A DNA stretch of 31,057 bases from a virus, in IMG/VR virus record IMGVR_UViG_3300031552_000013, positions 1 to 31,057 of that record, one strand, 5' to 3'. The position numbers and the translations under genes are program-made. Each line of letters starts with the position of its first letter. Position 1 is the first letter of the stretch. Of this stretch, positions 915 through 20,146 are shown in pieces. The notes beneath the pieces were generated by a model, which was not told the origin of the DNA, made no database searches, and saw nothing but the letters and a program-made list of their open reading frames with translations.

Positions 915-1058
915 GAGCATCAGAGGGATTCGAACCCTCGAAGGTAGTGGTGAATCTATTGATCTATAGATTTTATCACCTATCCGATGGACATAGAAGG
1001 TATCAGATCATTTCCTTCTATACCCAACCCGCTTTGACCTCTTGCGGTTATGATGCTC
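915..1058 (-). tRNA. tRNA-like RNA 2 (class II Ser/Tyr-like ends) with extended anticodon and variable arms
   Basis: Leftward, AGCATCA (1051-1057) pairs with TGATGCT (916-922). An extra G1058-C915 pair gives an 8-bp stem, the layout also seen in tRNA-His. The D arm is CCGC-AAGAGGTCAAA-GCGG and the T arm GAGGG-TTCGAAT-CCCTC, preceded by the CTTC typical of long variable arms. In place of an anticodon arm there is a 13-bp hairpin (1014-1026 with 988-1000, including G-U pairs) with a 13-nt loop. A second long hairpin follows (GGTG 949-952/CACC 977-980 and AATCTAT 953-959/ATAGATT 966-972) where the variable arm belongs. It is only a few bases upstream of RNA 1, so the two form a tandem pair. No anticodon can be assigned. 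Confidence 0.55.
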
Positions 1059-1334: not shown

Positions 1335-1370
1335 ATATACTCCGTTCTTTCTTAAAGATTAAAATACAAA

Positions 1371-1439
1371 ACACAGATGTACGCCTGTCTATTGTTCGGT
1401 TCCCTTACCTACTTTTATATAGACAGACGTCACCTGTGT
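1371..1439 (-). terminator. Long-stem hairpin followed by T-rich run
   Basis: Bases 1371-1392 and 1419-1439 form an inverted repeat of about 20 bp (outer ACACAG/CTGTGT, inner CTGTCTAT/ATAGACAG) with G-U pairs and one small bulge. The loop is about 26 nt. Read leftward, the stem is followed by TTTTGTATTTTAAT. It lies just after the stop of the DUF669-like gene. The best reading is an intrinsic terminator or an mRNA 3'-end stabilising structure. The loop is longer than in most terminators. Confidence 0.5.
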
Positions 1440-1445
1440 CCTTCT

Positions 1446-18613: not shown

Positions 18614-20146
18614 ATGCTTGATCCTAAGTCTAAGAAAATACTTGAAGAGCTCATGGTAGAGTGTTATAAAAGCACTCAGTTCATGGCACAGCTTTTATAT
18701 CCAGAGGAGTTCTTTGGAGAGATGACTTCTTTGCATAAGACACTCTTTGACTTTTTAGACAACTGTAAGGCTCCTAAGAGATATATACAAGCGTTTAGAG
18801 GTTTTGGTAAAACAACAGCAAACGGATTGTTGGTAAGAAAAAAGATTCTATTCGATGAGAAGCGTTTTATTGGATACCTTACAAATAGTGGAGAGGTAGC
18901 TCAAGTTGTATCTAACTCTATAAAAATAGGTCTTATAGCCAATGATGAAGTGAGGAAGATATTTGGTGATGTTAGGATAAGTCAAGTGCAGGGAGTAGGT
19001 GAACAATGGGCACAGAAAAGTTGGATTGCTAAAGGACAGACACTTGTTCTACCGAGAGGTTATGGTCAACAGGTTAATGGTTTAAAGTGGATGTATTATA
19101 GACCAGACTTTTGGGTTATTGACGACCTTGATGATAGAGTCGAAGTTAGGAATGATGAACAGAGAAAGAAGTTAAGAGAGTGGTTCTATGGTGCTCTTAT
19201 GTATACTGTTACTCAGTATAAGTCGGAAGATGTTAAACCTGAGTTTCTTTATACAGATACTATAAAGCACCCAGATGGCTTAATCTGTCATCTTATGGAC
19301 GATCCAGATTGGGAGGGGATAACACTTTCTATATGTAACGAGGATTATAAGACTCTTGCTCCTTCTATAACAACACAAGAGGAACTTGATAAAGAGATAG
19401 AAGGACATAGAAGAAATAAAACAATGGACATCTTTGCAAGAGAGCGAATGGGTATTGCTCAGAGCAAAGAGTATGGTACGTTTAAAGCTTCTTACTTTCA
19501 GTACTACTCAGAGAACGATGATGACTTTGTTAAAATAGTAAGACCAAGGTTGATAAATATACTCTTATATGATCCGTCTAAAACAAAGAATCCTGCTAAT
19601 GCACAGTCTGCTTTTATAGTGTGGGGTCTTGACCTTGAGTATTCTAAGTTCTATATGCGCTTAGCTCTTGGAGCTTATTTAGGAGCTGGTGAACAATACG
19701 ACAAGATTATTGAGTTAGCTGAATGGTTTAGGATACAGGCTTTGGGTATAGAGGTAACAGGCTTGGAGGATCATCTTATCTATAATATAACTAATACCTG
19801 TATGTTAAAACATAAACAGTGGATTATGTCTAACTTGATTACACTTAATCCTAAAAGTGGTAAGGGAGAGTTTTCAGGATATGAAGGAGGAAAAGAAGGC
19901 AGGATTAGCTTGCTTCTTCCTTTCTATGAAAAAGGTCTTATAGTACATAATAAGGACGCTTGTGGACAACTTGAACAGCAACTGTTGGGTTCCAAACTGA
20001 GGGACGTTGCAGACGCTGCAGCCTATCTACCTCAAGCTTTGGCGAAGGGTGCTAAGTATATGTGCCCACCAGCTACTGCTGAGGAAGAAAGTGCTAACTT
20101 TGGTATGGTAGGGGTATCAGGTTTGCAAAGGAAAGTATTTGTTTAA
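18614..20146 (+). CDS. Terminase large subunit
   Basis: The 510-residue product is the DNA-packaging motor. Walker A is FRGFGKTT (residues 61-68). The Walker B strand with acidic pair is 'FWVIDDLDD' (about 165-173), and a coupling region follows. The RNase H-like nuclease domain begins with 'ILLYDPSKTK' (near 318, first metal-binding Asp), and 'KLRDVADAAAYLPQAL' near the end may hold a late acidic residue. Length is typical. A copy of the dispersed palindrome begins one base after the stop codon. Confidence 0.92.
   Translation: MLDPKSKKILEELMVECYKSTQFMAQLLYPEEFFGEMTSLHKTLFDFLDNCKAPKRYIQAFRGFGKTTANGLLVRKKILFDEKRFIGYLTNSGEVAQVVSNSIKIGLIANDEVRKIFGDVRISQVQGVGEQWAQKSWIAKGQTLVLPRGYGQQVNGLKWMYYRPDFWVIDDLDDRVEVRNDEQRKKLREWFYGALMYTVTQYKSEDVKPEFLYTDTIKHPDGLICHLMDDPDWEGITLSICNEDYKTLAPSITTQEELDKEIEGHRRNKTMDIFARERMGIAQSKEYGTFKASYFQYYSENDDDFVKIVRPRLINILLYDPSKTKNPANAQSAFIVWGLDLEYSKFYMRLALGAYLGAGEQYDKIIELAEWFRIQALGIEVTGLEDHLIYNITNTCMLKHKQWIMSNLITLNPKSGKGEFSGYEGGKEGRISLLLPFYEKGLIVHNKDACGQLEQQLLGSKLRDVADAAAYLPQALAKGAKYMCPPATAEEESANFGMVGVSGLQRKVFV

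Follow-up and report, generated by a model that had tools for sequence, protein, structure and literature searches.

Do two neighbouring phage RNAs that keep the ends of tRNAs, with large folded middles in place of the anticodon arm, represent decaying tRNA genes, tRNAs interrupted by introns, or RNAs that are maintained for another role? The question is raised by two minus-strand elements, RNA 1 (773-909) and RNA 2 (915-1058), of a 31-kb linear virus record (31,057 nucleotides; this whole stretch, which was analysed at full length, is referred to below as the window). The window encodes a terminase, a major head protein and recombination functions of the Sak4 type. Among named phages, Desulfofustis phage LS06-2018-MD01 is the nearest relative, with 34% identity in TerL; a scan of that phage found no tRNA-like RNA. 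RNA 1 and RNA 2 are placed among small genes of an operon, together with PD-(D/E)XK, Sak4 and DUF669 genes, and the pair, separated by 5 nt, fills an intergenic gap. Scanning the window for a T arm, acceptor and U8 returned exactly these two RNAs, and scans for sigma-70 promoters and terminators gave results at chance level. A long and very stable hairpin was also observed at 1367-1443 (minus strand; -35.5 kcal/mol, z -7.0), with the DUF669 gene on one side and the ORF at 1077-1334 on the other.

Anatomy of the two RNAs

In RNA 2, the 5′ side of the acceptor (GAGCAUCA, 1051-1058, consisting of G-1 at 1058 plus 7 nt) pairs with the 3′ side (UGAUGCUC, 915-922, including C73 at 915), after which comes CAAA. 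The 8-bp acceptor with a -1 type G-C pair that the first-pass annotation had described is present and is Watson-Crick throughout, with G-1:C73 and 7 further pairs. Because CAAA follows C73, as it follows A73 in the Leu class, the end was read as His-type. The RNA has U8 and A9, and the D and T arms, previously judged to be good, bear this out: the D arm (1029-1048, ACCGC-AAGAGGUCAAA-GCGG) has a CCGC/GCGG stem and GG in its loop, and the T arm (923-939, GAGGG-UUCGAAU-CCCUC) fits the consensus. The D-loop pattern AGNGGUNNAA is Ser-type, from the comparison of pattern and nt 48, and G15 is able to pair with C48 (at 940). RNA 2 thus departs from the Leu-type RNAs described below in its Ser-type D loop, C48 and G-1:C73, and as its D loop is Ser-type but its end His-type, its amino-acid identity is uncertain.

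The place of the anticodon arm is taken by a 13-bp hairpin (988-1026), with a 13-nt loop AAAUGAUCUGAUA at 1013-1001, and the variable-arm position by a second hairpin (949-980), with the 6-nt loop AGAUCA at 965-960. Both had been reported at precisely these coordinates, and on folding alone they gave -13.6 kcal/mol (z -2.7 against shuffles) and -8.5 kcal/mol (z -3.2), respectively. The whole of RNA 2 (1058-915) folds at -50.2 kcal/mol, compared with -33.5 ± 4.1 kcal/mol for shuffled sequences (z -4.1), a value reached by 0/200 shuffles. The segment UGAUCU of the larger loop (1005-1010) is fully complementary to AGAUCA, a post hoc observation equalled in 0.18% of loop shuffles (chance 0.0018), and by this complementarity the two loops can form a candidate 6-bp kissing pair. 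Since blastn gave no homologue of RNA 2 in phages, covariation could be examined only among related RNAs.

RNA 1 is a Leu-type tRNA-ended RNA with A73 at 773. Its D arm (GCGGAACUGGUAGACGC, 884-900) contains A14, A15, G18G19 and A20a, and its T arm (GUAGG-UUCGAAU-CCUGC) lies at 781-797, with U48 at 798. A stem, S1, occupies the anticodon-stem position (829-882), in which GAGGA (882-878) pairs with UCCUU (833-829) and an extra hairpin lies within; a candidate pseudoknot stem, UGGCAUU (875-869) with AAUGCCA (809-803), spans 803-875, with a score that was reached by 13/60 shuffles and is not significant alone. RNA 1 has every feature of a Leu-type mimic: the Leu-type D arm, U48, A73, a paired acceptor and no anticodon arm. 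The exact pattern of its 5′ end had no match in viral contigs.

ARAGORN detected neither RNA. Rfam assigned RNA 1 to RF00005 (37.1 bits) with the middle 73 nt unaligned, and calls it a tRNA only because this middle is skipped; RNA 2 was not detected. At E values up to 1, RF00005 (RNA 1) and one chance match were the only Rfam results, with no match to YrlA or Y RNAs, and neither ARAGORN nor Rfam found a tmRNA in the window. Compared with an elongator tRNA, both RNAs have the 7-bp acceptor, U8, a D arm with GG and a T arm with TTCRA, as well as the elbow contacts, and in both a structured insert replaces the anticodon and variable arms, so that an anticodon arm with a 7-nt loop and a 5-bp stem is absent, whether read contiguously or after splicing. 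The motif ATGTCYATC, put forward earlier as a possible shared site, does have two copies in the window, one per RNA, yet this number was reached in 14 of 100 shuffles, and a check of other long Leu-type RNAs found it in 0/119; this suggestion was not borne out.

Related RNAs in other phages

A class pattern in which part of the Leu D arm and the T arm were fixed with a spacing of 60-90 nt identified at least 120 viral loci that have acceptor, D and T arms in common and inserts that vary. A perfect 7-bp acceptor was in the right place in 87 of 121 matches of a pattern that left the acceptor unconstrained; many of the others we read as cases in which a D-loop hairpin shifts the acceptor beyond the examined range. 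A second scan, requiring a T arm, a 7-bp acceptor, U8 and a D stem and nothing else, recovered canonical tRNAs and another size peak about 40 nt longer, and in a comparable scan of about 240 loci real acceptors gave 317 matches and shuffled acceptors 4.

Contigs related to the window through Sak4 were obtained by Sak4 alignment, and so were gathered irrespective of tRNAs. A Leu-type D arm was found in 7/9 distinct long tRNA-ended RNAs from these contigs (L004, L006, L009, L037, L045, L051 and L069; the identical L054 and L057 were entered once). The D and T arms of a Leu-type RNA in L002, the closest Sak4 relative, are only 16 nt apart, too close to accommodate an anticodon arm. No match came from scanning viral contigs with DUF669, Sak4 or TerL as single proteins. 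An extra D-loop hairpin, with GG and the D stem retained, was seen in the Leu-type RNAs of L009, L045, L051, L069, L092 and L106.

Of the 40 loci recovered from the genomes of bacteria and archaea, only part are such RNAs; clear cases came from Sphingobacterium, Epilithonimonas, Dysgonomonas and Bacteroides ihuae, some of them near a terminase-like gene. The cultured Bacteroides phage BS-TP2 carries an unannotated element (19544-19669 of PQ571275) identical to L142 that occupies the gap between two genes. No conserved neighbour gene was found for these RNAs, and the neighbouring genes that recur are mostly on the same strand. Within a single phage such RNAs can be multiple: the tRNA-ended RNAs of L148, Leu-type or related, number six and differ in their inserts but not in their ends. 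Paralogous tRNA-ended RNAs with AGUCAGG-type ends and unrelated inserts were likewise observed within L148, L154, L180, L141 and L085. At the locus L144 a GOLLD RNA (153-560; Rfam RF02032, 306 bits) was seen together with a long Leu-type RNA.

As D-loop patterns were used to collect both the Leu-type and the class-I sets, part of the conservation of D-loop letters in them stems from how they were chosen; the patterns did not include nt 48, nt 73 or nt -1. The acceptors of the class comprise 46 different sequences, all paired, in a set that was selected for pairing. Nucleotide 48 was U in 105/109 non-redundant Leu-type RNAs, and positions 4-8 nt from the insert end looked random. Because the acceptor AGUCAGG is common to many Leu-type RNAs, each acceptor was also counted once: nt 48 was then U in 43/44 Leu-type RNAs, which have A15, and C in 9/10 Ser-type and 23/23 class-I-type RNAs, both of which have G15. 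The Levitt pair 15:48 is thus kept. G-1 accompanied C73 in 12/12 RNAs and was present in 3/65 RNAs without C73 (p 1e-11). In some RNAs, such as those of L006 and L324, an encoded CCA marks the extra pair as an eighth acceptor pair, with another discriminator after it.

The inserts also carry a signal of selection on structure. Compensatory changes in insert helices numbered 12 in Leu-type RNAs, against 3.5 ± 1.9 after column shuffling, and 10 in Ser-type RNAs, against 1.7, and those in class-I-type RNAs were above column shuffling too; the counts are from truly related pairs only and, because a sequence can occur in more than one pair, are not all independent. With unrelated inserts mixed in the signal was weak (6 against 3.5). 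The best case, L147 compared with L190, has three double changes in one 7-bp stem. A generic pseudoknot score was weakly enriched (about 20% of inserts at or below 3/60 shuffles), and no recurring motif was found in the inserts. No published description of the class was found in the literature covered, with bioRxiv and most subscription journals outside that coverage; this widespread group of phage RNAs is apparently undescribed.

Proposed function and competing readings

Our leading but tentative reading is that RNA 1 and RNA 2 are phage-made, non-decoding tRNA mimics, which would mature as tRNAs do, be chargeable and act in trans as decoys. Maturation like that of a tRNA and charging independent of the anticodon are proposed because the Leu set is complete in RNA 1 and RNA 2 has the His pair. 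RNase P and the tRNA 3′-end machinery would excise the RNAs from an early transcript, and CCA would be added. E. coli LeuRS needs A73, A15-U48, G18G19, A20a and D/T-loop contacts, an E. coli tRNALeu from which the anticodon and variable arms have been removed is still chargeable, and minihelices with G-1:C73 are charged by HisRS (PMC9976931). RNA 1 may accordingly be a substrate of LeuRS through A73, A15:U48, G18G19 and A20a, and RNA 2 of HisRS through G-1:C73, and neither would be able to read codons. Leucylation fits poorly with the exceptions at nt 73 among Leu-type RNAs, which have G73 in 14 cases and U73 in 3. The folded insert might serve to keep the mimic away from the ribosome and to stabilise it. 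The least certain step is the last, in which a decoy acting in trans during infection would titrate a host factor that recognises the acceptor/CCA end or the elbow of tRNAs, for example a tRNA-modifying defence toxin. A decoy was the first choice of function because tRNA-modifying anti-phage toxins, such as CapRel, are known (PMC9712102), and the lack of a single accompanying gene fits an RNA that acts in trans. With slightly more reserve, we suggest that phages of many hosts may carry tRNA mimics that lack an anticodon, can be aminoacylated and have structured, variable inserts, a class as yet unnamed that would act in trans as decoys or as substitutes for charged tRNAs against the host.

It is also conceivable, but rather unlikely, that these RNAs are natural tRNA scaffolds, whose ends serve only for maturation and protection and whose variable middle does the work, by antisense pairing or protein binding, the kissing loop included. 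The near-constant ends and variable middles, found even among the six paralogues of one phage (L148), fit such a role, and compensatory changes do maintain the insert helices; however, the Leu- and His-type identity nucleotides would be superfluous in a pure scaffold, and no motif was seen to recur in the inserts.

More doubtful is that the RNAs punctuate transcripts, with RNase P and RNase Z sites in phage operons setting mRNA ends, as mitochondrial tRNAs do, and the middle free to vary. The way in which RNA 2 and RNA 1, 5 nt apart, fill their intergenic gap suits this idea, as do the BS-TP2 element between its two genes and the same-strand orientation of most recurrent neighbours. The acceptor/T-arm helix is generally held to be nearly sufficient for RNase P, yet the D arm, A15:U48 and the link between G-1 and C73 have all been retained, and selection acts on the insert helices.

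That the RNAs are decaying tRNA genes with accumulated insertions is highly improbable. Phages often lose tRNA genes and the inserts do vary among relatives, but perfect acceptors, the Levitt pair and the G-1:C73 link are preserved, the inserts carry compensatory changes and the architecture recurs at no fewer than 120 viral loci; at the level of the family this reading is refuted. The view of the first-pass annotation, that tandem RNAs with tRNA ends and folded middles do not reflect simple decay, is upheld by how widespread the architecture is, by the tertiary-contact nucleotides that are kept and by the compensatory changes in the inserts.

Intron-containing phage tRNAs are reported from Lak megaphages (PMC6784885), and the inserts could in principle be spliced out likewise to restore an anticodon arm. 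In the splicing test, one block was removed in silico and the remainder was checked for a canonical anticodon arm. A Leu anticodon arm was obtained from 0/108 Leu-type inserts, whereas in the positive control an arm was restored in 44% of class-I long tRNAs and in 1.2% of shuffles. There are thus two populations, one of true intron-like tRNAs, which often belong to large phages, and one of mimics that lack an anticodon; judged from sequence, RNA 1 and RNA 2 are members of the latter and not intron-like tRNAs. Although phage tRNAs with introns have been reported and the long tRNAs of class I agree with this, splicing is the least credible explanation for the two RNAs, and the intron model, with the splice site entertained earlier, was rejected for them and for the Leu-type RNAs, as single-block removal restored no Leu arm in the Leu-type set and no arm of any kind in RNA 1 or RNA 2.

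Some of the class-I tRNAs deserve separate mention. Those of L256, L257, L261, L265, L270, L280 and L283, from several large viral contigs, are interrupted after nt 28 of the anticodon stem by about 45-55 nt of extra sequence; these inserts often share a core of UARAA...hairpin...ACAGCAAC, and their excision restores Lys, Ile, Asn and Pro anticodon arms. This is possibly a new small type of tRNA intron. In a second structured class-I family (L246, L258, L276, L287 and L293, with L255, L260, L284 and L291), GGTRAAGGACC and GTAAAGCAAGCC-like segments are conserved and one stem has compensatory changes; no splicing to an anticodon arm was found. Two large phages (L297 and L308) have tRNA-like RNAs with a normal-sized, 7-nt anticodon-like loop and a giant variable arm, the helices of which covary between the two.

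Relation to known RNAs and significance

RNA 1 resembles a bacterial tRNA-Leu in its acceptor, D and T arms, U8, G18G19, A15:U48 and A73, and RNA 2 a bacterial tRNA-His in its acceptor, D and T arms, U8 and G-1:C73; unlike these tRNAs, they have no anticodon arm, carry structured inserts of about 90 nt and are negative with ARAGORN. In tmRNA, which also has a tag reading frame, the tRNA-Ala-like end is likewise charged without an anticodon, and the body contains pseudoknots, but RNA 1 and RNA 2 are about 140 nt long and match no tmRNA with ARAGORN or Rfam. YrlA and the bacterial Y RNAs are small RNAs that mimic tRNA; they were not matched by Rfam at E up to 1, and the ends of RNA 1 and RNA 2 are true tRNA acceptor ends. 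An engineered tRNA scaffold presents an RNA of interest on a stable tRNA body, at the position of the anticodon, whereas the phage RNAs are natural, retain identity elements and have variable inserts. The intron tRNAs of Lak megaphages (PMC6784885) have in common with the present RNAs that a phage tRNA gene contains extra sequence, but removal of one block leaves RNA 1, RNA 2 and the Leu-type class without an anticodon arm.

A common class of phage RNA may thus be escaping annotation, with tRNA finders either missing its members or labelling them as odd tRNAs. The cultured phage BS-TP2, which grows on Bacteroides salyersiae, and the cultured bacteria that have such RNAs in their genomes make these ideas testable. 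If the RNAs are charged and do not decode, they would offer a direct test of phage tRNA decoys against tRNA-targeting immunity; if instead the work is done by the insert, these RNAs would be a natural counterpart of the scaffold trick by which biotechnologists express RNAs.
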